A stretch of DNA of 56,159 nt from Lachnospiraceae bacterium (lineage in GTDB: Bacteria; Bacillota; Clostridia; Lachnospirales; Lachnospiraceae). A program made the translations under genes and the position numbers. Shown piece after piece: positions 9,668-46,267 of this stretch. Location: positions 1 through 56,159 of the forward strand of contig JAFUFL010000007.1 in assembly GCA_017469935.1 (NCBI GenBank). The letters run 5' to 3'. The first letter of the stretch is position 1, and each line of letters opens with the position of its first letter. The notes under the pieces were generated by a model. The model ran no database searches, had not been told where the DNA came from, and saw nothing but the letters and a program-made list of their open reading frames with translations.

Positions 9668-11246
9668 GCCGCTCACCTTCTTCCCAGTATTTCTGTCCGA
9701 TCAGTGAGAAGTCGAGCGGGCATTCGCGAAGCATCTGTTCTTCCATAGACAGATACGGCTTATCCGATTCCTTGGATATGTGCCCCAGCGTATCTGTAAT
9801 AACCTGGTGAGGAACCTTTTTCAACAGGAGTTTGTGCGTCAGCGTATATCTGCAGACATGAACCCCCTGACTGTCGCGGTTTACGGTCTTTATGTTGGCC
9901 TGTGAAAAAAGCTGGGAACAGACCGTATACATCGAGGCAAGCTTTTTGTAAGGCGCCTGTTTCCTTACAAATACATGCGGGCAGGCACGCGCATCCTCCG
10001 GCCGCTCATTCATGATGTAGTCCATGATACTGTTGCCGACGTCCTCCAATAAAGGAAGGCAGAGAGTTACTCCGGTTTTTTCCTGCTCCAGAACGATCCG
10101 ATCTTTTTTCCAGTCGATCTGGTCGAACCGCAGATTGCAGATATCAACGTCTCTCAGTCCAAGACGGAGCGCCAGCCGCATCATCGCTTTGGTCCGCAAG
10201 GGTGCTTCCTTCATGGTCTGGTAGAGCTTCGCTTCATCTGAAGCGGTGATATAAGGCCTGAGGTGAATCCGTTGATATGCGGGAGCCATGACCATGCCTG
10301 AAAAATCTGTCGGAACAAACCCTGCAGCGAATAAATAAGACAGGATCTTGCGGATGATCGGATATACGGTTCCCCTGCTGTTCAGGTTAAGCTTTTCTGA
10401 CAGGAAGACAAGCATGTCCTGGATCTGCGCAGGCTTTAGCGTAAGAAGATCATTAACAGTATTAACTCCCAAGCCTTCGATCATATTTCGAAAAGTATAG
10501 TCACAAAGGTCAAGGGTATTGTTTTCAAGGTTCTGAGTACGTAAAAATGCTAAATACTGCTGGCGGAGATGTTCCAGTGTTTCTTCATGACAGCATACTT
10601 TTCGTGAACGAAACAGCTTCCACTTAAAGCAGCCTGTATCAGCGACTTCAAGCAGTACACAAGCTGCACGGCGGCGTATCTTCCTCTTCCATTCGTGCAA
10701 GTTTCCAGCATGATGTTTCTTATCCGCATCTTCAATGAAAAACCTGCATCTTTCACGCGTGAATGCTGTATCGCCGCCGAGATAAAGAGATATATATAAT
10801 TCCCGCCATGCTTTCATGTACTGACCACCGGTTGATGCGGAAAGCTGAAGATACTCCATTTCGATTTCCGCCCTGCGGATCAGATGACCGATGTCAATAC
10901 TTCCGTCAATGATCGGAAATTCTACAGTCCGGAATGCGCACTCTGCCTCGTAGGAAGATGGGATTTCAGGCTCATTATAGAGGGTCCCTTCCGGCATAAA
11001 TGCCCTTGTTCCAGCTTCCTTGTCCACAAGACGTACGGTATGGAATAGCTGGAAACGAAGATCCGGCGTATCTGCCCTGGAAACATAAGAATCATATAGT
11101 TCCTGGCAAGGCTCGGTGAATCCTGTTTTCTCTGCGTGATCAGACAACTGTTCCAGGTAACGCCTGCGCACATCGTAAGTTGAAGGAGCAAGCAATAGCT
11201 TCTGTTGTACAAGGACAGCGTTCACAACTTTTTGCAACTCGTTCAT
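9660..11246 (-). CDS. Tyrosine recombinase, first and largest gene of the RIT trio
   Basis: The 528-residue protein has a long N-terminal region of about 240 residues without recognisable domain, then a core-binding and catalytic domain: Arg in LALRLGLRDVDICNL, His-x-x-Arg in HVCRYTLTH, His in TLGHISKES and Tyr in KPYLSMEEQ. The frame is open for 28 more codons upstream, but AAAGGAG before the ATG at 11246 decides the start. It is the first gene of the trio; its promoter must lie in the right end next to the inverted repeat. Confidence 0.85.
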   Translation of the reverse strand: MNELQKVVNAVLVQQKLLLAPSTYDVRRRYLEQLSDHAEKTGFTEPCQELYDSYVSRADTPDLRFQLFHTVRLVDKEAGTRAFMPEGTLYNEPEIPSSYEAECAFRTVEFPIIDGSIDIGHLIRRAEIEMEYLQLSASTGGQYMKAWRELYISLYLGGDTAFTRERCRFFIEDADKKHHAGNLHEWKRKIRRRAACVLLEVADTGCFKWKLFRSRKVCCHEETLEHLRQQYLAFLRTQNLENNTLDLCDYTFRNMIEGLGVNTVNDLLTLKPAQIQDMLVFLSEKLNLNSRGTVYPIIRKILSYLFAAGFVPTDFSGMVMAPAYQRIHLRPYITASDEAKLYQTMKEAPLRTKAMMRLALRLGLRDVDICNLRFDQIDWKKDRIVLEQEKTGVTLCLPLLEDVGNSIMDYIMNERPEDARACPHVFVRKQAPYKKLASMYTVCSQLFSQANIKTVNRDSQGVHVCRYTLTHKLLLKKVPHQVITDTLGHISKESDKPYLSMEEQMLRECPLDFSLIGQKYWEEGERHG

Positions 11247-30890: not shown

Positions 30891-31478
30891 GTGGAAGTAT
30901 TAGTTAAGAGCTCAAATGGTATCACACAGGTTTCGGCGGACTCGAAACTCTTATCGCAGAGGAAGGTGTTCATCGAGGGAGAGATCGACGATCAGGCCGC
31001 ATGTTCTTTTATTAAGAAGATCATGCTCCTGACTGCGGAGAACCCGAACAAGGAGATCGATGTGCTGATCAACAGCCCCGGCGGGGAGATCAATTCCGGC
31101 CTGGCCATGTATGATGTGATTCAGTCATGTAAGACACCGATCAGGATCTTCTGCATCGGACGCGCCTACAGTATGGCGGCTGTGCTGTTTGCGAGCGGCA
31201 GGAACGGAAGATATATGCTCCCGCACAGCGAACTTATGCTCCACGAGCCCCTTCTGGGCAATCACGTGAGAGGAAACAGCTCATCGATCAAATCAATCTC
31301 GGACAGCTTGATCAGCACCAAGATCAAGCTCAATCAGATCCTGGCAAAGCACACCGGAAAAAGTGAAGAGGAAGTGGAGAAAGCGAGCAGCTTTGATCAC
31401 TATTTTGACCCGGAAGAGAGCATCGAATTCGGGCTTTGCGACGAGGTAGTGGATTTCAGCAAGATCATGGAGGACTGA
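30891..31478 (+). CDS. ClpP-family serine protease subunit
   Basis: The 195-residue protein has ClpP features: VFIEGEIDDQAACSFIKKI, INSPGGEINSGLAMYD, nucleophile Ser in GRAYSMAAVLFASG, His in LMLHEPLLG and Asp in SSFDHYFDPEE. It starts at GTG with GGAGGTG before it. There is no ClpX or ClpC gene beside it; the next gene, 3 bp on, encodes a VirD4/TraG-like ATPase. Since most Clostridia have a main clpP with clpX elsewhere, this is probably an extra copy tied to that ATPase. Confidence 0.88.
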   Translation: MEVLVKSSNGITQVSADSKLLSQRKVFIEGEIDDQAACSFIKKIMLLTAENPNKEIDVLINSPGGEINSGLAMYDVIQSCKTPIRIFCIGRAYSMAAVLFASGRNGRYMLPHSELMLHEPLLGNHVRGNSSSIKSISDSLISTKIKLNQILAKHTGKSEEEVEKASSFDHYFDPEESIEFGLCDEVVDFSKIMED

Positions 31479-31481
31479 GGT

Positions 31482-32714
31482 ATGAGAAAAGAGAGAGTCA
31501 TTTTGGGACAGAACTGCATCTACAGCACGGACTGCGAGGAGACCGGCCTCAACAACAATGTTCTGGTGTGCGGCGGAAGCGGGAGCGGCAAGACCATGTC
31601 GGTGGCGGAGCCCAGATTCCTTGAGACAAAATACAGCAACCTGATCGCAACCGTGGCCAAGCGGCGCCTGGTGGGGAAGTACGTTCCGCTGTTCAAAAAG
31701 AGGAAGTACAAGGTTCTGGACCTGAATCTGGCCAATCCGCGCGAGAGCACATGCGCTTACGATCCCATGAAATATATCGAGAGCAATTCGGACATCACTT
31801 TTTTGGCAAAGTCTATTGTGAAGGCGGATCCGCAGAAGGCTAAGTCGACGGCCGACCCGTACTGGGATCAGGCGGCGGTCTCTCTGTTGTCGGCCGAGAT
31901 TGCCTACACCAAAATGACGGACAAGAACGCCACCTTTGCGGACGTTCTGGAGCTGCACGACATGCTCAGCATAGAGGACGGTATCGGAACGGTCTCGACG
32001 AGCCTTGACGAATTGTTTGATGATGTGGACGAAAAGTGTTTTGCCGTATCCTGCTGGAAGTCGTTCAAATCGCTGCCGATCCGGACGGCGGGCTGTGTGT
32101 TCGGAACGCTCAATACGACGATTGATACGATCTTCACCCCTGAGCTCAGAGAGATGATCGCGAATAAGCCGTCGATCGATTTCAAAGAGTTCGCAAAGAA
32201 TAAGACGGCGCTGTTCGTGACGACCAGCGCGGTAAATCCTTCGCTTCACTTCTATGTGAACATGTTCTACGCGCAGGCTTTCAAGCAGCTCTTTGAATAC
32301 GCCGAGGGCTGCGCCGACGGCGTGCTGCCGATTCCGGTGCACATGCTGTGCGACGACTTCGCCTGCGGGGGACGCGTCCTGAATTTCCCGGAGTACATCA
32401 GCATCTTCCGCGAGAAGGGGATCTCGGTCACTTTGCTCCTGCAGTCGGAGAGCCAGCTCGAGCAGATGTACGGGGAGGACAACGCGACGACCATTATCAA
32501 TAACTGTGATACTTATATTTTCCTCGGCGGGATGGACCTCCTGACGGCCAGGAATATCAGCATCCGTCTGAACTGCCCGCTTGATGAGGTGCTCTATATG
32601 CCGATCGGTGACGAGATCATATTTCGGCGCGGGCAGAGGCCGATTCTCACGACCCGGTATGATGTCCGGAAGGATAAGCAGTATCAGGATGTGTCACGGG
32701 GACGTATCTCCTGA
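31482..32714 (+). CDS. VirD4/TraG-like (type IV coupling protein family) ATPase, soluble, short
   Basis: The 410-residue protein has Walker A in VCGGSGSGKTMSVAEP, a Walker B-like MLCDDFACGG, and the family segment ISVTLLLQSESQLEQMYG. It lacks the N-terminal membrane helices of true coupling proteins. TraG-like soluble versions occur in conjugative elements of Clostridia. The last residues (DVSRGRIS) and the stop are encoded by the REP-like palindrome at 32691, so its 3' end was remodelled. With the ClpP gene it forms a two-gene unit flanked by palindromes. Confidence 0.8.
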   Translation: MRKERVILGQNCIYSTDCEETGLNNNVLVCGGSGSGKTMSVAEPRFLETKYSNLIATVAKRRLVGKYVPLFKKRKYKVLDLNLANPRESTCAYDPMKYIESNSDITFLAKSIVKADPQKAKSTADPYWDQAAVSLLSAEIAYTKMTDKNATFADVLELHDMLSIEDGIGTVSTSLDELFDDVDEKCFAVSCWKSFKSLPIRTAGCVFGTLNTTIDTIFTPELREMIANKPSIDFKEFAKNKTALFVTTSAVNPSLHFYVNMFYAQAFKQLFEYAEGCADGVLPIPVHMLCDDFACGGRVLNFPEYISIFREKGISVTLLLQSESQLEQMYGEDNATTIINNCDTYIFLGGMDLLTARNISIRLNCPLDEVLYMPIGDEIIFRRGQRPILTTRYDVRKDKQYQDVSRGRIS

Positions 32715-33328: not shown

Positions 33329-34951
33329 TTATTGTGGATTCTTCCTGCCACTGTCCCGCTGGAGCTGCAGGATGTCTTCTTTGCGGTATTTGCGCATGTA
33401 GGCGAGAACGTACCCGCTGAAGAGCATCCGCGCGCGGAAATCGGGGTCCTCCAGATCCCTGTCGATGATCTCCTCGATCTTTTTGATCTTGTACAGAAGG
33501 GTGTTTCTGTGCATGTACAGCGCCTCCGCCGCCTTGGTGGTATTTCGCTCGTGCATCAGGAAAGTGAGCAGAATATCAGCCATATTCGTGGAGTGCTTCT
33601 GGTCGTACATAACGAGGGCGATCATCTCGTTGTTGCACAGGTGGGCCAGATTGCGGCTGCTGAGATATTTGATCTCGGATTCGGCGGCCAGCTCGATGAT
33701 CTGGTACATGGCATAATCTTCATAATAATAGATGCGCCTGGAGGGATCGATGTGGCGGCCGAGCCGGAGCGCCCCGTGGACCTGGTGGTACATGGGAGGC
33801 AGGGACATCATGAACTCGGAGGCGTTGCCCATGCAGGAATAACCGTTGTACTGTTCAAGAAGAGACATCAGGTGCTTTTCATTGAAGTGAACGCGGCTCT
33901 TGCGCTGTCTCTTCTGAATGATGAGGAGGATGTCTCCGTCATAGGTAGTGATATTGCTGTAGGGGAAGATATACTGCAGCTGCGAGATTACATAATTCCA
34001 CGGAATCGTGCTGCGATTCCCGCTCTGGTCGAAGGTGACGAGCATCAGGTGAAAATAGCGATGGGCGATGAGCCGGACCTGTTTCATGCGGTGATCCAGC
34101 TCTTTCTGGTCTACGATCCTTCCTTCTATGATATCGGAGACGAGGCTGCCCAGTTCCGCGTTGCTGGCGTAGTCCACGCTCTGTTTGTTGAAGAGATACC
34201 TCGCGATCGCGGCGCCCAGGATCTCCATGTAATCAGTGTAAGCGGGGGCAGTATCCGGCCCGTCAAGGATCAGGCACAGCCTGGCCGCGACCCGCTCTCT
34301 GTAACGGATCAGGCGGATGATCGTGTAATTTCCGCTGGCTTTTGACACGTATTCGGACGTCTCCGGCGTTGAGAAAACCGGAGTCTCTCCATGGATCCGC
34401 TCGATGGTCTCGAAAGTGTGATAGCCCAGTTCCCGGACCTCGTCGATGGTGGGATCGGACACGCCTTCTCTGTACACCACGGCCTGCAGCTTGTAGCCGG
34501 CGTTGGTGAGAATCAGCGTCCCCGGAAGAAAGGAAGAGAGATCGAGGAGTTTTTGCATTCCCTCATTTCTGTAGAGCGCGTTTTCCAGGTCATCGTGCCA
34601 GCGGATGAAGGCGCTGACTTTCTCCGCCAGATTATTGAACATGACCGGCAGGCTCTCCCGGGTATAGAGGACGGTGCAGCCGTCGGGCAGACCGGCGGGG
34701 GCGGCGCTATTTTCACAGCTGCAGCAGAGGTAGCAGAAGGGGCCTTTATCGCGAGGCGCAGCGCTGACCGACTCCGCAAAAGACTGCAAGTCGTTTTCGT
34801 ATCCGGTATAGAGAATAAAAGGGAGCGGCTCGATCCCCGGCTGATAGAGGCGCATGTCGCCGTTGCAGGAGAATGCGGGGACGCCGACCTGCGAGTCTGC
34901 GAGATCCTGTCCCATCCAGTGGAGCAGAATGGGGAAGGTTATTGTTGCCAT
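33329..34951 (-). CDS. PucR-family transcriptional regulator
   Basis: The 540-residue protein has an N-terminal region like the purine-catabolism regulator domain (residues 1-150), a GGDEF-like/central domain (about 270-400), and the C-terminal PucR helix-turn-helix ending HERNTTKAAEALYMHRNTLLYKIKKIEE (in part NTTKAAEALYMHRNTLLYKI). GGAGGT precedes the ATG. It is divergent from the CitMHS transporter gene and probably controls it and the following CoA-metabolism genes. Its stop abuts repeat array C. Confidence 0.9.
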   Translation of the reverse strand: MATITFPILLHWMGQDLADSQVGVPAFSCNGDMRLYQPGIEPLPFILYTGYENDLQSFAESVSAAPRDKGPFCYLCCSCENSAAPAGLPDGCTVLYTRESLPVMFNNLAEKVSAFIRWHDDLENALYRNEGMQKLLDLSSFLPGTLILTNAGYKLQAVVYREGVSDPTIDEVRELGYHTFETIERIHGETPVFSTPETSEYVSKASGNYTIIRLIRYRERVAARLCLILDGPDTAPAYTDYMEILGAAIARYLFNKQSVDYASNAELGSLVSDIIEGRIVDQKELDHRMKQVRLIAHRYFHLMLVTFDQSGNRSTIPWNYVISQLQYIFPYSNITTYDGDILLIIQKRQRKSRVHFNEKHLMSLLEQYNGYSCMGNASEFMMSLPPMYHQVHGALRLGRHIDPSRRIYYYEDYAMYQIIELAAESEIKYLSSRNLAHLCNNEMIALVMYDQKHSTNMADILLTFLMHERNTTKAAEALYMHRNTLLYKIKKIEEIIDRDLEDPDFRARMLFSGYVLAYMRKYRKEDILQLQRDSGRKNPQ

Positions 34952-35274: not shown

Positions 35275-36639
35275 ATGTTGGCAACAATGGGCTTTATTCT
35301 CGTCATTGCAATGGTAGTCCTGATCATCCGAGGCAAAGTAGCACTTCCTCCGATCCTGATCATCCTGCCTACGATCGCAACCTTTATTCTCGGCTTTATG
35401 GGATATCTGGTTCCTCCGGGAAAGGAAGAGCCTGCCGCCATGGGCGTGAAGATGATCATCAAGACCCTTCAGGGTTATGTCTCCACAGGCGCCAACCAGG
35501 TCCTGAATACCGTCGCGCTGTTCACATTCGCGATCGTGTTCTTCAATATCCTCAGTGATGCCGGCATGTTCGACGCCATCGTGGCAAGAGCATTCAAATA
35601 TATCGGCAACAGCATCGGTGTTATACTGTTTATGACATGCCTTCTGGCGACGATCTCTCACCTCGACGGATCCGGCGCGACAACATGGCTGATCACAGTT
35701 CCCACAATGCTTCCTCTGTTCAAGAAGATGAAGCTGCCGCCGACCCTCCTGGTCCTCTATGTAGGTCTTGTATCCGGTGTCGTCAACATGCTTCCCTGGA
35801 CATCCGCGCTGGCACGCGCCACGGCAGGCGTAGAAGGCGTTGAGCCCCATGACGTCTGGGTAAAACTGGTTGTCGCGCAGGTCGTCGGCCTGATCATTCT
35901 CTATGTCTCCTGCTTCATCGTCGGCCCTATGCTTCAGAAGAAGGGCTACGGCATGTCTGATGAGGAATTCGCACAGATGAAAGACGGCCTTCTTCATCCC
36001 GAAGAGCCCGTTCTGAAGGTCAGCAAGACTGTTCTCTACATCGATATGGCTTTGACAGTTATCATCGTAGTCGCCCTCCTTCTTGGCTGGGTCAACACGA
36101 ACCTCGCATTCATGTGGGGTATTGCCGCGGCACTGCTGCTCAACTGCCACGGACCTAAGGAGATGACGGCGCAGATCAAGAAGCACGGCGCGAACGCCCT
36201 GAACATGATCATGATCCTGTTCTCCATCGGCATGCTGGTCGGAACCATGAAAGACTCCGGCATGATGCAGGCCATGACCAACACACTGGTATCGCTTGTA
36301 CCTGAGGCACTCAGCACACACCTGATGTTCATTATCGCCTGCATCTCCGCTCCGCTCTCGATGGTCGTCGGATCTGACTCTCTGTACATGATCATGACTC
36401 CTATCTTCGCAAGCATGAGCGTGGCCTTCGGCGGAACAGCGATCTCCGCTGTATGCGCGAGCGTAATCGGTGCCTGCCTGGCAGCAAACCTCTGCCTGGT
36501 CGCACCTACACCTTACCTGGCACTCGGCCTTGCAGGCGTCGAGATGAAAGACAACCTCAAGTTCTGCTTCCTTCCCACATGGGGACTGAGCATCATTCTG
36601 GCGATCGTGGCGGCCCTTGCCGGCGCGTTCCCGTTCTGA
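35275..36639 (+). CDS. CitMHS-type organic acid:cation symporter
   Basis: The 454-residue protein has about 11-12 hydrophobic segments and the CitMHS pattern: start MLATMGFILVIAMVVLIIRG, then ATISHLDGSGATTWLITVPTMLPLFKKM in parts (SHLDGSGATTWLITVP) and SDSLYMIMTPIFAS near the end. Family members import citrate or similar acids complexed with a divalent metal, driven by protons. It is divergent from pucR and followed, after a small hairpin, by the dehydratase-like genes, so it probably imports their substrate. Confidence 0.88.
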   Translation: MLATMGFILVIAMVVLIIRGKVALPPILIILPTIATFILGFMGYLVPPGKEEPAAMGVKMIIKTLQGYVSTGANQVLNTVALFTFAIVFFNILSDAGMFDAIVARAFKYIGNSIGVILFMTCLLATISHLDGSGATTWLITVPTMLPLFKKMKLPPTLLVLYVGLVSGVVNMLPWTSALARATAGVEGVEPHDVWVKLVVAQVVGLIILYVSCFIVGPMLQKKGYGMSDEEFAQMKDGLLHPEEPVLKVSKTVLYIDMALTVIIVVALLLGWVNTNLAFMWGIAAALLLNCHGPKEMTAQIKKHGANALNMIMILFSIGMLVGTMKDSGMMQAMTNTLVSLVPEALSTHLMFIIACISAPLSMVVGSDSLYMIMTPIFASMSVAFGGTAISAVCASVIGACLAANLCLVAPTPYLALGLAGVEMKDNLKFCFLPTWGLSIILAIVAALAGAFPF

Positions 36640-36730: not shown

Positions 36731-37900
36731 ATGAGTATTCGTTCCTGCGCTATGGAGAGCAAAGCTTTCCTGGCACTCAAGGATGCCTACGACCACCGCG
36801 AGAAAGGGGCGGCAGCTGCCCGCGCCGCAGGCGTCAAGGTAGTGGGCGAACTGGGATTTGATGTACCGGAGGAACTCGTCCTGGCAGCAGGCATGTTCCC
36901 GGTAAGAATATACGCGGACCCCGGGAAATCCCTGGAAGAGACAGACAAGTATCTGGAATATTCCTTTGAACCGGTCGTTCGCGCGCAATTTGAGAAGATC
37001 ATCGACGGAACCTACGGAAGCCAACTCGATTATCTGGCTATCTCCAATTCCACGGATGTGATCATCCGAATTTTCCTCTATCTGCGTGAGCTTAAGAGGG
37101 TAGAGCCCGAGAAGCCGGTGCCTCCGATCACCTTCATCGACTGGCTCTTCACCCGTCACCGCCTTCATCAGATGCGAGATGAGTTTGTGATCGATCTCTT
37201 CAAGAAGCAGCTCGAGGAGTGGGCCGGAAGAGAGATCACGGATGAGCAGATCCGGGAAGCCGGAGCGGTCCTCAACGAGAACCGCAGGGCGCTTCGCGAG
37301 ATGGCGCAGCTTCGTCACGGACAGGAGGTCCGGATCAGCGGCAGCGAAGCGATGGTGATCATCGGCGCAGGCTTCTTTATGGACAAAAAAGAGCACACCG
37401 CGCTTGTCGCGCAGGTGACCGAAGACGCTAAGTCCTGGCCAGTACTGGAAGGCCCCCGCGTCTTCTATACCGGAGCAAACCACGAGGACCTCGCGCTCTA
37501 TGAGAAGATTGAGGCGGCAGGTCTTGTGATCGTGGGCGAAGACACGGACTGGGGAGACAGATCCTACGACCGCGATTACAATCCCGGGCTCCCGGTCATC
37601 CGCGGCGTGGTAGACAGATATCTTTTCCGCGAGTTCTCCGCCAAGAAGGCTTTCGTGAGCCAGAGAGTGGAGGCGCTGGACAGAGAAGTGAACGCGGCCG
37701 GCGCAGAGGGCGTGATCTTCTACACGAACCAGTACGATGAAGTCGCGACCTGGGACATGCCAAAACAGAGAAAGAGCCTGGAGTCCCGCGGAATCAAACA
37801 TATCACTTTCGGACGCATGCAGTGGCCGGTCTCCCGAAATGAAGGACTCGATGAGAAACTCGCGGCATTTGCCCAGGAGATGAAAGGGGGTGCGCAGTAA
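36731..37900 (+). CDS. 2-hydroxyacyl-CoA dehydratase subunit D-like protein lacking cluster cysteines
   Basis: The 389-residue protein follows the HgdB/FldC pattern: FDVPEELVLAAGMFPVRIY near residue 43, ISNSTDVIIRIFLYL near 104, DWLFTRHR, and EGVIFYTNQYDEVATWDMP near 326. In the family each of three such regions normally supplies a Cys ligand to a [4Fe-4S] cluster. Here Cys6 is the only Cys; positions where I expect Cys hold Ser/Phe (LEYSFEP), Ser/Thr (SNSTD) and Asn/Gln/Tyr (TNQYD). It overlaps the next gene by one base (TAATG). The reaction is therefore uncertain. Confidence 0.82.
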   Translation: MSIRSCAMESKAFLALKDAYDHREKGAAAARAAGVKVVGELGFDVPEELVLAAGMFPVRIYADPGKSLEETDKYLEYSFEPVVRAQFEKIIDGTYGSQLDYLAISNSTDVIIRIFLYLRELKRVEPEKPVPPITFIDWLFTRHRLHQMRDEFVIDLFKKQLEEWAGREITDEQIREAGAVLNENRRALREMAQLRHGQEVRISGSEAMVIIGAGFFMDKKEHTALVAQVTEDAKSWPVLEGPRVFYTGANHEDLALYEKIEAAGLVIVGEDTDWGDRSYDRDYNPGLPVIRGVVDRYLFREFSAKKAFVSQRVEALDREVNAAGAEGVIFYTNQYDEVATWDMPKQRKSLESRGIKHITFGRMQWPVSRNEGLDEKLAAFAQEMKGGAQ

Positions 37901-39249
37901 TGGCTCAGGAACAGAAAGGAACCGCTTCCAAATCGGCGGTTGTCAAAAAGCTCAAAGCCACGAAAGCGGCCAGCGTCTACCAGAAACAGTGGTTTTTTGG
38001 CATGAAAGAGCGCGTGGAGAGAGAGGGCGGCGACTTCGCCGTGCTCAACGCGGACGTCCCCATGGAGATCTTCCGCGCGATGGATATCCCCTTCGTGGTC
38101 AATCAGTGGTGGGCAGCGATCTGCGGCGCCAAGAGAATGACGAGGAAATATTTTGGCCTGATGCAGGAAAACGGGTATCGCCCCGACCTCAACAGCTATG
38201 ACGCGCAGGCCCTTGCCGAGAGCTTCGACCCGGACGACAAGAAAATCGACGCCGACGGCAATCCCATGGGTCCCTGGGGCGGACTTCCGACTCCTACGAT
38301 CTCCATCACCCGTCTGACCGGGGATGTGCAGAGCAAGATCTTCGGGCTTCTCGCCGAGAACTACGGCGCGGATCTCTACGTCATTGAGAACACGGTCGCC
38401 CGCACGACGCCCCTGAACTGGTATGAACTGGCGGCGGACCGCTGGGAGGAGATGTACGACAAGGATCGTCTGGACCTGGCTGTCGAGGAGCTCAAGGAGC
38501 TGATCCGCTGGCTGGAGATGAAGACCGGCAAAATGATGGATATCAACAAGCTGGAATATGTAATGAACCTCATCAACGAGCAGGAGGGGTATTACAAGAA
38601 GACGAGAGACCTGATCGCCTCCTGTCATCCGGTTCCGGTAACGGTAGTGGATACGATTAATGCAGTCATGCAGGCGCAGTGGCAGCGCGGCACCGAGTGG
38701 GCCGTCGAGCACGCAAAGAGCCTGTATGAAGAGGTGAAGGCACTTGCGGACGCGGGCGTCGCGGCCGTGCCCAATGAAAAACTCCGCCTGATGTGGATCG
38801 GACGCGGAATGTGGCAGGATTTTGCCTTCTACCAGAGATTTGAAGAGAAATACGGCGCTGTCTTCATGTGGTCCATGTACCTGGCAATGGGCGCGGACGC
38901 CTATATCAGGAACAACGTGGAAGAGGACCCGCTCCGCGCGCTGGCGGCCCGCTTTATCGGCATGGAGGACTTCCTTCACATGCCGCCGTGGAACAGCAGC
39001 TGGTTCATCCAGCAGGCGCAGCAGAACGACATCGACGGCGTGGTCTATATGATCCCCGACAACGACATCCAGGCGGTCGAGGGCAGCTATTTTATCAAAA
39101 AAGCGCTCGAAGACGCCGGAATCCCCGTGCTCGCCTTCCACGGTGACCCGGTCAATCCCCGGAAGTGGAACGCAGAGACCATGACATCCCTTGTAGACGA
39201 ATTCATCGAGACCAGAGTCATCCCGGCTCACGAAAAGAAAGAGAGGTAA
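37900..39249 (+). CDS. 2-hydroxyacyl-CoA dehydratase alpha-like subunit lacking cluster cysteines
   Basis: The 449-residue partner resembles HgdA/FldB: PFVVNQWWAAICGAKRM near residue 65, GYRPDLNSYDAQ near 92, GLPTPTISITRLTG near 128, NWYELAADRWEE, and a late IDGVVYMIPDNDIQAVEGSYF with VLAFHGDPVNPRKW. The usual D-L-C-S-Y cluster ligand is Asn98 (DLNSY). Only two Cys exist (75 and 242), neither at a ligand position I recognise. No HgdC-type ATP-dependent activator gene is in the window. AAAGGGGGTG precedes the start. Confidence 0.82.
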   Translation: MAQEQKGTASKSAVVKKLKATKAASVYQKQWFFGMKERVEREGGDFAVLNADVPMEIFRAMDIPFVVNQWWAAICGAKRMTRKYFGLMQENGYRPDLNSYDAQALAESFDPDDKKIDADGNPMGPWGGLPTPTISITRLTGDVQSKIFGLLAENYGADLYVIENTVARTTPLNWYELAADRWEEMYDKDRLDLAVEELKELIRWLEMKTGKMMDINKLEYVMNLINEQEGYYKKTRDLIASCHPVPVTVVDTINAVMQAQWQRGTEWAVEHAKSLYEEVKALADAGVAAVPNEKLRLMWIGRGMWQDFAFYQRFEEKYGAVFMWSMYLAMGADAYIRNNVEEDPLRALAARFIGMEDFLHMPPWNSSWFIQQAQQNDIDGVVYMIPDNDIQAVEGSYFIKKALEDAGIPVLAFHGDPVNPRKWNAETMTSLVDEFIETRVIPAHEKKER

Positions 39250-39254
39250 GAGCA

Positions 39255-40481
39255 ATGTCGAATAAGCCGCTTTCAGGTTACAGAGTTCTTGATATGACAC
39301 AGTTCGAGGCAGGCACCGTTTGCACAGAGACGCTGGCCTGGCTCGGCGCGGAAGTTCTCAAGGTTGAGCGCCCCGTAAAGGGCGAGCTCGGCCGCTATTC
39401 CCAGGCAGAGCCCGGTGTCGATTCCTACGGTTTTCTTGTCATGAACATGAACAAAAAATCGATCACCTGCAACGCGAAGAACCCGGAAGGCTTTAAGCTT
39501 CTCGAGGAGCTCGTAAAGAAGTGCGACGTCATCGTCGAGAACATGGGTCCCGGATCCATGGACAAGCTCGGCCTCACCTATGAGCACTGCAAAGAGCTCA
39601 ATCCGAAGATCATCTACGCCTCCCTCAAGGGATTCGCGCAGAACGGCCCCTACAAGGACTATCCCGCTTTTGACCCGATCGCCACGCACACCGGCGTCAT
39701 GGTCTCCGCGACCGGTCTGCCGGAGCGCCCCATCAAGTGCGGCATCTCCGTGGCGGACTCCGGTACCGGCATCATGCTGGCTACCTCCATCATCACGGCG
39801 CTTCTGCACAGAGAGCGCTACGGCGTGGGGCAGAGAGTGGACTGCGCGATGCAGGACTTCATGATCGGCCTCTCCCGCAGCCAGTGGGAGCCCTATTACG
39901 CCAACGGCTGTGTTCCGAACCGCCGCGTCGCGAACGGAATGCCGCTTGAGGATGTGGCTCCTTCGGATACCTATCCCTGCAAGCCCTTCGGCACGAATGA
40001 TTATGTCCACATTTACTGCAGCCGTCACCCCGGCTCCAAGCAGTGGGACAACCTCTGCGACGTGATCGGAAGACCCGATCTCAAGCAGGACGTCTGCCCC
40101 GAGATGGCCACCCCTCGCAGCCGTTTCGCAAACAGAGAGATCTGCGACAACGCTATCAAGGACTGGCTCAAGAATTATGACAAGTTCACGGCCATGGATA
40201 TCCTCTGCAAGGCGGACATCCCTGCGGGCGCGCTCCTTTCCGTTGACGACATCACCAATGACCCTCAGTACTACGCACAGGACCGCAAGATGATGGTCGA
40301 GATCGAGCATCCTCAGCGCGGCAAGGTCAGGCTTCCCGGTTTTGCACCCAGATTCTCCGAAGTGGAGATCGACTACAAGTGCTCCCCTGAGCTTGGCGGA
40401 TCCAATGAAGAAATTTACGGAGGACTTCTGGGCCTGTCAGCGGAGCAGCTTGCAGAGCTGAAGGAGCACAAAGCAATCTGA
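39255..40481 (+). CDS. Class III (CaiB/BaiF-type) CoA-transferase
   Basis: The 408-residue protein starts LSGYRVLDMTQFEAGTVCTE with GAEVLKVERP, keeps ENMGPGSMDKLGL, GFAQNGPYKDYPAFD and the likely catalytic Asp in ISVADSGTGIMLA. Such enzymes move CoA between carboxylic acids without full release. It lies 5 bp after the dehydratase-like pair, as CoA-transferases do beside true 2-hydroxyacyl-CoA dehydratases (for example FldA with FldBC). It likely makes the CoA ester used by the pair. Confidence 0.92.
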   Translation: MSNKPLSGYRVLDMTQFEAGTVCTETLAWLGAEVLKVERPVKGELGRYSQAEPGVDSYGFLVMNMNKKSITCNAKNPEGFKLLEELVKKCDVIVENMGPGSMDKLGLTYEHCKELNPKIIYASLKGFAQNGPYKDYPAFDPIATHTGVMVSATGLPERPIKCGISVADSGTGIMLATSIITALLHRERYGVGQRVDCAMQDFMIGLSRSQWEPYYANGCVPNRRVANGMPLEDVAPSDTYPCKPFGTNDYVHIYCSRHPGSKQWDNLCDVIGRPDLKQDVCPEMATPRSRFANREICDNAIKDWLKNYDKFTAMDILCKADIPAGALLSVDDITNDPQYYAQDRKMMVEIEHPQRGKVRLPGFAPRFSEVEIDYKCSPELGGSNEEIYGGLLGLSAEQLAELKEHKAI

Positions 40482-40682: not shown

Positions 40683-42053
40683 ATGGAGAAGAAGGTCGGA
40701 AGAGTCCGAGTCGTTACAGACAGGGAGTTTTATGGGGGTGTACTACGGATCATGGTCCCGGTCGCCCTGCAGGCTGCGATCAATATGGGCGTCAATATGC
40801 TGGATACGATGATGCTGGGGAGCTTTGGGGAGATCCAGCTCTCCGCGTCGAGTCTGGCCAACCAGTTTTACAATATTTTCTACATAGCCAATCTCGGGAT
40901 CATCGGCGGATCCAGCGTTCTGGCCTCCCAGTTCTGGGGAGCGGGCGAAAAAGAGAGCGCCAGGACGACTTTCAACATGGCGCTTCGGCTCTCTGCCGCA
41001 GTCTCCGCAGTCTTCATCGCGATTACCTGGCTGTTCCCCGGCGGGATCATGCGGCTGTACACCTCGGAGCCGGATGTCATCGCGCAGGGAATCCGCTATC
41101 TGAGGATTACGACGTTCGTCTACCTGATCCATGGGACCGGCCTCGTCGCGGCGCAGCTCATGCGCTCGGTGGGCGTAGTGCAGCTGGGACTGGTTGTCTC
41201 CATCATCTCCTTTGTGGTCAACATCGGAGCCAACTATGCGTTTATTTTCGGAAAATTCGGCGCGCCCCGCATGGAGATCGCCGGAGCGGCGCTCGGCACG
41301 CTGATCGCCCGAGGCGCGGAATTTCTGGTCACCTTTATCTATATTTTCCTGATCGATAAAAAGCTGCAGCTGCGACCGGTCCATCTTTTGAAATCGCCCT
41401 CCGGGCAGTTTTACAAAAATTTCTTCCGGCTGGGGGCACCGGTCCTTCTGAGTGATTTTCTGCTGGGCTTTGGCGGAAATATGATCTCGGTTGTGCTCGG
41501 GCACATGGGCTCCGCTGTCGTGGCGGCAAACGCCGTCTGTCAGGTCGTGGACCGGCTGGCCACGGTCGTGACGCAGGGAATTGCAAATGCGGCGGCGGTC
41601 ATCACAGGGCAGACGGTCGGCGCCAGAGAATATGACAAAGCCATGGTGCAGGGCGAGACTTTCTACCTGCTGAGCTTTATTGTCGGGTGTATTGCCGCGC
41701 TGTGCGTGCTGTTTTTTGGCCCGCTCACCTTTGAGGTCTATAAACTGGAGCCGGAGACAGTTGTGCTCGCCAGGCAGATCATGGGCTCTTACGCGGTCAT
41801 AGCGCTGTTCGGCGCCGTGCAGAGCGTGATGACAAAAGGCGTGCTCCGCGGCGGCGGAGATACAAGATTTCTTATGAAGGCGGACATATTGTTCCTGTGG
41901 ATCGTCTCGATTCCGCTCGGAGTCCTGGTCGGACTGGTACTGCACGGACCGGCCTGGCTGACGGTCATCTGCCTTCGAATTGACTATATGATCAAATCCT
42001 TCTGGTGCGTGGGGAGACTCCTCAGCGGGAAGTGGATTCACAGATTTGAGTGA
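40683..42053 (+). CDS. MATE-family efflux transporter
   Basis: The 456-residue protein has about 12 membrane segments and MATE features: LRIMVPVALQAAINMGVNMLDTMMLGSFG in pieces, LANQFYNIFYI, a gap, then VAANAVCQVVDRLATVVTQGIANAAAVITGQ in the second half. Members export drugs or metabolites in exchange for protons or sodium. It stands between two CoA-transferase genes, so it may export an end product. GGAGAACAGG precedes the ATG. Confidence 0.92.
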   Translation: MEKKVGRVRVVTDREFYGGVLRIMVPVALQAAINMGVNMLDTMMLGSFGEIQLSASSLANQFYNIFYIANLGIIGGSSVLASQFWGAGEKESARTTFNMALRLSAAVSAVFIAITWLFPGGIMRLYTSEPDVIAQGIRYLRITTFVYLIHGTGLVAAQLMRSVGVVQLGLVVSIISFVVNIGANYAFIFGKFGAPRMEIAGAALGTLIARGAEFLVTFIYIFLIDKKLQLRPVHLLKSPSGQFYKNFFRLGAPVLLSDFLLGFGGNMISVVLGHMGSAVVAANAVCQVVDRLATVVTQGIANAAAVITGQTVGAREYDKAMVQGETFYLLSFIVGCIAALCVLFFGPLTFEVYKLEPETVVLARQIMGSYAVIALFGAVQSVMTKGVLRGGGDTRFLMKADILFLWIVSIPLGVLVGLVLHGPAWLTVICLRIDYMIKSFWCVGRLLSGKWIHRFE

Positions 42054-42067
42054 GGAAAGGAGTAACA

Positions 42068-43693
42068 ATGGCACAGTTTATTACGGCAAAAGAAGCGGCG
42101 CAGCTGATTCCGGACGGCGCCACGGTCGCGATCTCGGGCATGGGCCTTTCCGGCTGGGCGGAAGAGCTGGGATGTGCTGTCAGGGACAGATTTAAGGAGA
42201 CCGGACACCCCAGGGACCTTCATCTCAAGCAGGACAGCGCCATGGGCGACTGGGCGGTCGGACAGAAGTTTATCGGCTGGGACAGAAACAAGCGGGAAGT
42301 GCCGGACACGGAGCACGGAGCCCGCGGCTCGACGCGGTTTGGCGAAGCCGGCCCCGGACTTATCAAAAAATGGACCAGCGCTCATGTGGGCAGCTCCTTT
42401 ACACTGAACGACCTGGCCTCAAAGAACCTTCTGGAGAGCTACTGCCTCCCCCAGGGCGTCACGATCAATCTGTGGAGAGAGATCGCGGCAGGACGCCCCG
42501 GCCTGATCACCAAGACAGGTCTCGGCACTTTTGTGGACCCCAGGGTAGAAGGCGGCAGAATGAACGAAGCGGCCAAAGATGAGATCGTCAAACTGATCGA
42601 GTTTAACGGCGAAGAGTATCTTTTCTACCCCACCTTCAAGTGCGATGTCGCGCTCCTTCGCGGCACGATCGCGGACGAGAACGGAAATATCTCCTTCCGC
42701 CACGAGAGCGTCGTAAATGAAGGCCCCGCGATCGCGGCCGCCACCAAGAACAGCGGGGGCATAGTGATCGTGCAGGTCGAATATCTGGCCAAAAAAGAGA
42801 CTCTGGATCCCAAGGAAGTCAAGATCCCGGGCGTTCTGGTGGACTATGTGGTGCAGGCGAAGGATCCCATGTCCTGCTGGCAGTCGGAAGGTGTTTACTG
42901 GGAACCCGCTTTTTCGGGCCAGATCAGGAAGCCTCTCGGCGCGATCGAGCCGCTTCCCATGGACGAGAGAAAGGTGATCTGCAGACGCTGCGCCATGGAA
43001 CTCAAGAAGGGAAGCCTGATCAATCTGGGCGTCGGAGTGCCGGCAGATGTGGCCAAAGTCATCGCGGAGGAAGGCCTGATCGAACATGTGACGATGAGCA
43101 CGGAGAGCGGAATGGTGGGAGGAGTTCCTTCGGCTCTTCCGAATTTCGGAAGCTCCTACAATCCGGAGAGCATTATCACCCCCAATGAGATGTTCGACCT
43201 CATTGACGGCGGCGGACTGGACGCGACCTGCCTCGGGATCGGCGAAATCGACAAAGAGGGAAACAACAATGTCAGCCGCATGGGAAAACGCCGGATCGGT
43301 CCCGGAGGTTTTATCGACATCACGGCGGCGACGCCCAAGGTCATCTTCGCGGGCACGTTCATGGGAAAGGCGGAGCTCAAGACCGGAGACGGCCGGATGA
43401 CGGTGCTCAAGGAGGGAACCTTCCGCAAGTTTGTGGACAAAGTCGGACAGATCACGTTCGCGGGCCAGTATTCACCCGCCACGCAGGAAGTGCTGTACGT
43501 CACCGAGCGCGCCGTCTTCAAACTCATTGACCATAAGGTGACTCTCATCGAGATCGCGCCGGGCATTGACCTTCAGACGCAGGTTCTCGACCAGATGGAC
43601 TTCGTCCCGGAGATTGCGGATGATCTTAAGCTCATGGATGAGGGGATTTTCTGTGAGAAGTGGGGAGGACTTGGGAAGTATATGGAAGGCTGA
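42068..43693 (+). CDS. Class I acyl-CoA:carboxylate CoA-transferase (YdiF/propionate CoA-transferase type)
   Basis: The 541-residue single-chain enzyme joins alpha-like (ITAKEAAQLIPDGATVAISG; LPQGVTINLWREIAAGRPG) and beta-like halves (MELKKGSLINLGVGVPADVA). The catalytic Glu is in VTMSTESGMVGGVP. YdiF-type members pass CoA among short acids such as acetate, propionate or 4-hydroxybutyrate. AAAGGAG precedes ATG 42068, 14 bp after the MATE stop. Together with the class III enzyme the cluster has two unrelated ways to make or recycle CoA esters. A REP-like palindrome follows the stop. Confidence 0.93.
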   Translation: MAQFITAKEAAQLIPDGATVAISGMGLSGWAEELGCAVRDRFKETGHPRDLHLKQDSAMGDWAVGQKFIGWDRNKREVPDTEHGARGSTRFGEAGPGLIKKWTSAHVGSSFTLNDLASKNLLESYCLPQGVTINLWREIAAGRPGLITKTGLGTFVDPRVEGGRMNEAAKDEIVKLIEFNGEEYLFYPTFKCDVALLRGTIADENGNISFRHESVVNEGPAIAAATKNSGGIVIVQVEYLAKKETLDPKEVKIPGVLVDYVVQAKDPMSCWQSEGVYWEPAFSGQIRKPLGAIEPLPMDERKVICRRCAMELKKGSLINLGVGVPADVAKVIAEEGLIEHVTMSTESGMVGGVPSALPNFGSSYNPESIITPNEMFDLIDGGGLDATCLGIGEIDKEGNNNVSRMGKRRIGPGGFIDITAATPKVIFAGTFMGKAELKTGDGRMTVLKEGTFRKFVDKVGQITFAGQYSPATQEVLYVTERAVFKLIDHKVTLIEIAPGIDLQTQVLDQMDFVPEIADDLKLMDEGIFCEKWGGLGKYMEG

Positions 43694-45280: not shown

Positions 45281-45940
45281 TCACCTTTTCAGAAATTCCG
45301 TCGAGACGGGAAACTCGAAATAAGTGTCCGGATACGGCTCGTCCCCAAGTGTGAAGTGCCACCACTCGCAGTCGATGGGCACAAATCCGCCGCGGACCAT
45401 CAGGTCCTGCAGGAACATCCGGTTCTCGTACTGCTCCTTTGTGACGTCCTTGCAATCGGGGTGGGACAGCTCGCTGAAATAGTCGAAGGGACTTCCCATG
45501 TCCACTTCTTTGCCGGTTTTCATATCCAGAAGCGTCAGATCGATGGTGCTGCCTCTGCTGTGGCTGGACTGGCTGGCAATGTAGCCCCTGCGGAAGAGCT
45601 CCTGCTTCTCGAGGTCCGGGTAGAAGAACGGCTTCATGCGCTGGTCCAGGTCGTCCACGCCCCAGAGCACAAAGTGCCTGACCGCGGCCGCCGGGCGGTA
45701 CGCGTCGAAGACTTTGAGGCGGTAGCCCATCACATTTGCCCGATTGCTGATCGCCTTAAGGGCTCTTGCCGCTTCCTTGGTGATGATCGCGCAGGGCTGC
45801 TCGTAGCCGTCGATCCTGTCTCCCACAAAATTGAAGGTGGAAAAATAGCGAATCTCCTGCACGATCGACGGAACAATATCCGAGAGCAGGACAAACCCAG
45901 ATGCATTCATCGCCGCTTCTTTTTTAAAATCTTTTTCCAT
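45281..45940 (-). CDS. D-alanyl-D-alanine dipeptidase (VanX family)
   Basis: The 219-residue zinc peptidase has the VanX ligands: His and Asp in SHSRGSTIDLTLLD, and Glu/His in DCEWWHFTLGD; Arg in KVFDAYRPAAAV is the usual substrate-side residue. ATG 45940 follows CCGGAG at eight bases; the Met ten residues on is an alternative. No vanA/vanH genes are near, so a role in peptidoglycan dipeptide use is more likely than vancomycin resistance. No signal peptide. Confidence 0.9.
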   Translation of the reverse strand: MEKDFKKEAAMNASGFVLLSDIVPSIVQEIRYFSTFNFVGDRIDGYEQPCAIITKEAARALKAISNRANVMGYRLKVFDAYRPAAAVRHFVLWGVDDLDQRMKPFFYPDLEKQELFRRGYIASQSSHSRGSTIDLTLLDMKTGKEVDMGSPFDYFSELSHPDCKDVTKEQYENRMFLQDLMVRGGFVPIDCEWWHFTLGDEPYPDTYFEFPVSTEFLKR

Positions 45941-46267
45941 TCTATTACTCCGGTGCGCACGGCACTTTTCCATAACCGGTGAGACCGCATAAGCGAAAGC
46001 TCCCTCCGGCTCAAACGCTTTCAGCTAAAATGATCTTCAATTAAAATGATCTTCAATTAAAATGATCTTCAGCCAAAACTGCCTTTACAACCCTATCATA
46101 ATTCTCTGTCTTTTACCATAAACGAATTGGATCTGAATGTGTACAATTTCGGATGTAAAATAGTCTGAAAAGTCCATAAATATAAAGGTTTGAGGTATTA
46201 CTAATTGGCGGGAACCGTGCGATACTGATTACTAAGAGGTGTTTACGAAATACGAGGGAGGTAAGAT
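45941..46267. other. 327-bp divergent intergenic region with 16-bp tandem repeat
   Basis: No gene. TAAAATGATCTTCAAT occurs in tandem at 46026 and 46042 with a third, nearly complete copy at 46058 (to 46072). AT-rich sequence suitable for promoters of both flanking genes surrounds it. GGGAGGTAAG precedes the ATG at 46268. Confidence 0.7.

Follow-up and report, generated by a model that had tools for sequence, protein, structure and literature searches.

The stretch of DNA considered here (the window; 56,159 nucleotides of contig JAFUFL010000007.1, from a Lachnospiraceae bacterium) contains two adjacent genes, A and B, whose products resemble the paired subunits of 2-hydroxyacyl-coenzyme A (CoA) dehydratases and benzoyl-CoA reductases, and in which the cysteines that would bind iron-sulfur clusters have been replaced. 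Neither frame is interrupted or truncated; the last base of A is also the first base of B (position 37900), and the stop codon of B (ending at 39249) lies 5 bp before the ATG of a class III CoA-transferase gene (39255). Measured against the Pfam HGD-D family (PF06050; cut-off 28.4 bits), A scores 171.3 bits and B 148.6 bits, the matches covering positions 4-339 and 3-340, respectively, of the 342 in the profile, and the modelled structure of B has the HadB/BzdO fold. An initial annotation of this DNA had described Cys6 as the only cysteine of A, Cys75 and Cys242 as the only cysteines of B, and the two genes as full length, tightly coupled to each other and to the transferase gene, and free of decay. 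All of this is borne out by the coordinates and by the translated frames of 389 and 449 residues, as well as by ratios of nonsynonymous to synonymous substitution (dN/dS) of 0.02-0.11 between the pair and six relatives; the pair is under purifying selection.

The columns at which canonical enzymes hold their clusters were located by aligning the window's A and B with the cysteine-bearing HadC-/HadB-like pair that this genome also encodes, along with six (for A) or seven (for B) other canonical rows. Cysteine occupies all three ligand columns in 8/8 canonical A rows (two of which are the same protein) and in 8/8 canonical B rows, whereas the window has E80, T108 and D336 at those columns in A, and N98, G141 and D389 in B. 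According to the paper on BzdNO (PMC11971306), the cluster ligands of BzdO are Cys95, Cys128 and Cys380, and coordination in HadB is alike. None of the pair's three cysteines falls at a ligand column, and the possibility that the ligand cysteines simply sit at shifted positions was thereby ruled out. The claim that the expected ligands are replaced, made in the initial annotation, was correct for Asn98, which stands at the column of HadB Cys84 and BzdO Cys95; the third column of A is occupied by Asp336, and not by the Asn/Gln/Tyr motif that had been proposed. The codon of B Cys75, a residue that corresponds to no cluster-ligand column, lies at 38122-38124 of the window.

A scan of 84,980 species genomes with two peptide patterns recovered 106 relatives; the 80 best were taken further. 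All three ligand cysteines of B are kept in 47 of the 62 rows in which A and B are separate genes, and all three are lost in 13 (the window included), while the remaining two rows are too short for their ligand columns to be judged. The group that keeps its cysteines belongs mostly to the Bacillota, with a few Actinomycetota; further cysteines occur at B position 101 in 51/62 separate-gene rows and at position 143 in 42/62. The 13 cluster-free rows, found in Lachnospiraceae, Oscillospiraceae, Intestinimonas and Oribacterium, show N/G/D at the ligand columns in 11 cases and D/S/D in two. The ligand cysteines are also absent from 20/20 proteobacterial B rows (Novosphingobium, Sphingomonas, Povalibacter and kin), and in 19 of these 20 A and B are fused in a single open frame of 764-901 residues; two B halves of the fused group contain no cysteine whatsoever. 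Cys75 is kept in 62/62 separate-gene rows and gives way to Val or Ala in the fused ones. The cluster-free branch that had been proposed is thus real, and the analysis adds to it both the many close relatives that keep their B cysteines and the fused version in Proteobacteria.

Subunit A is more uniform in this respect, in that no filled cell of its ligand columns holds cysteine across 61 separate and 19 fused rows (three cells are gaps; two distant proteobacterial loci, L105 and L106, are outside these and all other clade row counts). Two loci (L053 and L055) contributed only parts of A, and a third (L095), with a shorter frame of 601 residues, contributed no A row. Identity to the window is 23-30% for the fused A domain and 40-45% for the fused B domain.

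A loose search that used no pattern found the family in 4 of 398 Pseudomonadota genomes, the centre genome included, and in 3 of 398 genomes of the window's phylum, the window's own included, giving six pattern-free genomes besides that of the window. Two of the proteobacterial ones, L105 and L106, carry A and B as separate genes. The B protein of L106 has none of the three ligand cysteines and that of L107 has all three; at L105 (6916-11161), B has two of the three and A is shortened to 292 residues, making this locus an apparent intermediate. A scan of viral contigs returned no relative, and carriage by viruses was rejected as an explanation for the distribution.

The residues that surround the substrate tell a different story from those that surround the cluster. 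The column of HadB Glu55, which we take to be a conserved active-site glutamate of that enzyme, holds Gln69 in B. One of the two recruiting patterns was FVVNQWW, which is present in all 82 clade B rows, so that conservation of residues 65-71 follows by construction; Gln69 occurs in 82/82 pattern-recruited rows and in 6/6 pattern-free genomes, of which only the latter provide independent support, and NQWW is likewise found at residues 68-71 in 6/6 of them. Beyond this segment, Tyr100 is present in 82/82 clade B rows, and Tyr327 and Arg302 in 81 each (with one gap apiece), and many other B positions, including aromatic and charged residues, are at least 93% conserved across separate-gene and fused rows, and hence in both phyla, unlike in the canonical enzymes. 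The paper on BzdNO assigns the thioester oxygen of the BzdO substrate to Tyr97, Tyr298 and Gln274, and names Glu65, which adjoins the cluster, as the acid/base catalyst (PMC11971306). The part of the pocket that would polarise the carbonyl is kept in the rows examined, with the acid/base glutamate and the relay-cluster ligands gone, and binding of acyl-CoA by A/B can be predicted from the conserved thioester tyrosines. Positions common to cluster-bearing and cluster-free rows suggest that one electron-independent chemistry may be carried out by both.

The loss of the B ligands has occurred repeatedly. In a first tree (from which the truncated L071 and L079 were left out, and for which L011 was wrongly labelled canonical in the group table) the window group is nested among cysteine-bearing rows and clearly separated from the fused ones. 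A second tree was built without the ligand columns, and without L071, L079, L012, HadB_own, L024, L021, L041, L098 and L095, rows that were truncated or partial, long-branched, or near-duplicates. On that tree the cluster-free separate-gene rows form one clade, and the state of having no B cysteines needs three changes, three being forced by branches with support of 100/100 each, namely the window clade, the fused clade and L106 as sister to L105. Three losses of the B ligands, if cysteines are never regained, and at least two otherwise, are well supported; regain of two cysteines in L105 would make two losses suffice. Loss is the simpler direction, because the canonical outgroups have cysteine at the same columns. 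The branches to the outgroup and to L105 and L106 are long, which leaves the root inside the clade and the placing of these rows uncertain, and rows may be misplaced. The loss of iron-sulfur ligands is thus both stepwise and repeated in a family that is defined by those ligands.

The absence of an activator, also asserted in the initial annotation, holds for the locus and fails for the genome. No match to the activase family PF01869 was found on the window's contig, and no HadI-like gene in the 81 loci examined (with flanks of at most 10 kb, and often less); the window's genome does carry, on another contig (C42) beside a canonical HadB/HadC-like pair, an activase gene named as HadI-type by reading and by position. 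This canonical operon (L019:3470-9853 and 9880-11022; G000:C42) comprises a class III CoA-transferase-like gene, the activase and the cysteine-bearing HadB-/HadC-like subunits, together with ligase-like and acyl-CoA-dehydrogenase-like genes, named by reading. In activase searches of the genomes behind 20 of the 80 loci, and of four further genomes, TIGR00241 exceeded its cut-off in 0/16 proteobacterial genomes (of unreported completeness, with one sub-cut-off match, in G407) and in 8/8 non-proteobacterial genomes. PF06050 detects a single locus in each of the 16 proteobacterial genomes, which is the family itself.

Table 1. Genes of the locus, and codons of A and B at cluster-ligand and pocket columns (positions of the window).
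Feature	Position	Strand	Remark
Regulator, PucR type	33329..34951	-	Divergent from the operon
Carboxylate transporter, CitMHS family	35275..36639	+	
Subunit A, HadC/HgdB/BzdN-like HGD-D protein, 389 aa	36731..37900	+	Without cluster cysteines
A Glu80 codon	36968..36970	+	First canonical cluster-Cys column (alignment)
A Thr108 codon	37052..37054	+	Second canonical cluster-Cys column (alignment)
A Asp336 codon	37736..37738	+	Third canonical cluster-Cys column (alignment)
Subunit B, HadB/HgdA/BzdO-like HGD-D protein, 449 aa	37900..39249	+	Catalytic-cluster cysteines replaced
B Gln69 codon	38104..38106	+	Aligns with HadB Glu55 and BzdO Glu65
B Asn98 codon	38191..38193	+	Aligns with HadB Cys84 and BzdO Cys95
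B Tyr100 codon	38197..38199	+	Aligns with BzdO Tyr97 (thioester oxygen)
B Gly141 codon	38320..38322	+	Aligns with BzdO Cys128
B Arg302 codon	38803..38805	+	Aligns with BzdO Gln274 (thioester oxygen)
B Tyr327 codon	38878..38880	+	Aligns with BzdO Tyr298 (thioester oxygen)
B Asp389 codon	39064..39066	+	Aligns with BzdO Cys380
Class III CoA-transferase	39255..40481	+	Closest to formyl-CoA transferase, below equivalog cut-off
MATE exporter	40683..42053	+	Loosely associated
Second CoA-transferase (PF01144)	42068..43693	+	Loosely associated

The genes that accompany the pair (Table 1) were identified as claimed, profile matches having confirmed the CitMHS, MATE, PucR and second CoA-transferase genes. 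Contig ends interrupt many of the loci, and the neighbourhood counts are consequently lower bounds. A class III CoA-transferase gene is found no more than 250 bp downstream of B in at least 48 of 61 separate-gene loci and near the pair in 20/20 proteobacterial loci; in 4/4 such sequences aligned, the aspartate is present at the site that we take to be that of the catalytic motif. Among the 12 cluster-free separate-gene loci besides the window, this transferase recurs in at least 11, PucR and CitMHS in at least nine each, and the second CoA-transferase in at least two. The suggestion that these genes form an acid-using pathway fits the transporters and the CoA-transferases; the set of genes nevertheless varies, as the sparse occurrence of the second CoA-transferase indicates.

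Importers differ by branch and are mostly of the carboxylate type (CitMHS, MatC-like or TRAP DctPQM), with Dpp-type binding proteins or an MFS protein at some loci. PGA_cap (CapA-like) proteins, which weakly resemble the lasso-peptide epimerase MslH, occur in at least 28 of 81 loci in both Bacillota and Pseudomonadota, with examples beside the pair at L070:7637-8818, L056:15045-17366 and L088:13608-14738. Some cysteine-bearing members stand beside glycyl radical enzymes (L070:2608-5908, L031:1435-8698 and L077:3957-7416), all three of which, when scanned, fell below every NCBIfam equivalog cut-off, and which are accompanied by activases and weakly URO-D-like proteins. As a guide to the substrate, the CitMHS, MatC-like, TRAP, Dpp-type, PGA_cap, glycyl radical and URO-D-like genes point to no single compound.

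Elsewhere in the window, a ClpP-like protease gene directly 5' of a VirD4/TraG-like coupling-protein gene (30891-32714; names by reading) may mark an integrative conjugative element beside the operon, and an open reading frame on the minus strand (45281-45973) resembles, by eye, a VanX-type D-Ala-D-Ala dipeptidase.

Comparison with characterised systems places the pair in a known fold and shows differences from each of them. The nearest dehydratases are HadBC ((R)-2-hydroxyisocaproyl-CoA dehydratase; PDB 3o3m) and its kin (the lactyl-, phenyllactyl- and 2-hydroxyglutaryl-CoA dehydratases), to which the window pair is approximately 20% identical; as in the operons of these ATP-activated enzymes, a class III CoA-transferase gene is present, whereas the pair lacks cluster cysteines in either subunit, has Gln at the Glu55 column and has no adjacent activase. 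NCBIfam scores against this group (64.2 of 750 for B and 90.4 of 700 for A) are far below cut-off. The class I benzoyl-CoA reductase BzdNO (PDB 8s02) has in common with the pair its fold and the Tyr97/Tyr298 columns, and BzdN is the best PDB sequence match of A (1.3e-22). The window lacks equivalents of BzdO Cys95/128/380 and Glu65, A is too poor in cysteine to hold the double-cubane cluster of BzdN, no activator gene is nearby, and the bzdN and bzdO models (96.5 of 453.8 bits and 55.6 of 448.6 bits) are missed. The double-cubane cluster protein DCCP (PDB 6eno and 7yyl) likewise has the HGD-D fold; the window pair does not have the cysteines for an [8Fe-9S] cluster (one in A, two in B), and its family, unlike DCCP, is a heterodimer or fusion encoded beside a CoA-transferase.

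Within the clade, the cysteine-bearing sisters (for example L011, L056, L069 and L070) resemble the window in their A-B-CoA-transferase order, in NQWW and in an A subunit without cluster cysteines, and differ in that B keeps the three ligand cysteines, accompanied in most cases by a CxxC and a CxC partner; the B protein of L011 is 73% identical to that of the window. The fused proteobacterial form (19 of L081-L100, plus L102) has both domains in one chain, with identical pocket residues and no cluster cysteines, and differs in its TRAP transporter genes, additional CoA-transferases and a deletion of the third B ligand column. Its sphingomonad hosts are aerobes. No NCBIfam equivalog cut-off was reached by A, B or the fused protein, all of which score far below, and membership of a known subfamily was rejected on that ground; no description of the clade was found in the literature, which is weak evidence given that mostly openly readable papers were covered.

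These observations indicate that A/B is very probably a cluster-free acyl-CoA enzyme. The initial annotation's further idea, that such a branch performs different chemistry or uses a new cofactor, is plausible. The explanation that we favour, with moderate confidence, is that A/B evolved from a radical enzyme into an acyl-CoA lyase or isomerase that needs neither redox chemistry nor an activator. An imported carboxylate would be converted to its CoA ester by the class III CoA-transferase, and A/B would act just afterwards, as a heterodimer with the dehydratase/benzoyl-CoA reductase fold that would bind neither [4Fe-4S] cluster. The acyl-CoA would be seated in the channel of B, where its thioester carbonyl could be polarised by Tyr100, Tyr327 and probably Arg302, and, in the absence of an electron supply, acid-base chemistry on an enolate-like intermediate would replace dehydration by way of a ketyl radical. 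Elimination or hydration, isomerisation and C-C cleavage are the reaction types that might follow, and a polycarboxylate is our best guess as to the substrate. The specific assignment of acid-base lyase or isomerase chemistry is possible and distinctly tentative. Somewhat less tentative, with doubt still slightly the greater, is the extension of this scheme to the entire clade as a redox-neutral acyl-CoA enzyme, in which the relay cluster of A was lost first, the B cluster persisted in many anaerobes in a non-redox role, as a Lewis acid, and later disappeared on two or three occasions, with one line becoming fused in aerobic sphingomonads.

Several observations weigh against the lyase or isomerase proposal. 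With B cysteines kept in most separate-gene rows, the cluster plays a part in the majority of that group, and the reaction could differ between branches. The presence of activases in every non-proteobacterial genome searched, and of the HadI-type gene in the window's own genome, means that some use of an activator might still occur there. Arg302 is replaced by Ala in the distant proteobacterial rows L105 and L106; the low identity of fused A to window A makes its column assignment less sure; and the proposal does not account for the retention of Cys75 in separate-gene rows and its loss in fused ones.

Replacement of the cluster by a divalent metal, bound as a Lewis acid by carboxylate or hydroxyl side chains in the former ligand columns, is unlikely, although the columns are often acidic. 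Among separate-gene rows, D/E occupies 53/59 filled cells at A position 80 and 59/61 at position 336, and D stands at B 389 in 13/13 cluster-free ones; among fused rows, D is retained at A 336 (19/19) and E/D at B 98 (20/20). Fused rows, however, have S or G at A 80 and a gap at B 389, which leaves no clade-wide ligand set, and the acidic A residues also occur where B keeps its cluster cysteines. A non-catalytic paralogue, binding CoA esters or acting as a regulator (a helper of the CoA-transferase or a sensor of acyl-CoA), is a more doubtful proposition still. It would account for the disappearance of the known cluster ligands and acid/base glutamate, and for the poor conservation of A across phyla (including its shortened form in L105); the conservation of B between two phyla and its retention through fusion fit catalysis better, without proving it.

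It is highly improbable that A/B is an ordinary dehydratase, acting on 2-hydroxyacyl-CoA with its cluster on other ligands and served by the genome's HadI-type activase. That activase exists, and the adjoining class III CoA-transferase is presumably an arrangement also found in Had and Fld operons; yet the three cysteines of the pair are all away from the ligand columns, Gln replaces the acid/base glutamate, the activase belongs to another operon, where a canonical pair accompanies it, and neither the 81 loci nor, above cut-off, the 16 proteobacterial genomes yielded such a gene. That the genes are decaying remnants of a canonical pair, as the loss of otherwise invariant cysteines might hint, can be practically dismissed in view of their open frames, low dN/dS, recurring operon order and the existence of 13 cluster-free separate-gene rows, of which those placed in the tree form one clade.

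Benzoyl-CoA reductases and 2-hydroxyacyl-CoA dehydratases carry out radical chemistry by means of low-potential iron-sulfur clusters and ATP-driven injection of electrons, and are normally enzymes of anaerobes. The repeated loss of ligand cysteines described here has occurred in a pair that is nevertheless well conserved, and that has been fused in sphingomonads, and the family therefore probably represents a new, iron-free chemistry on CoA esters. As members of the HGD-D superfamily, A and B should be filed under neither the 2-hydroxyacyl-CoA dehydratases nor the benzoyl-CoA reductases. In the paper on BzdNO, Cys-to-Ala variants of that enzyme failed through instability (PMC11971306), and naturally cluster-free proteins therefore offer a direct route to the role of the cluster, which becomes readable in relatives that have the fold and the CoA-ester pocket without the ligands of both clusters. 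The same proteins also urge caution, in that a gene annotated as '2-hydroxyacyl-CoA dehydratase', whether from gut, rumen or soil bacteria, is no proof that hydroxy acids are being fermented.

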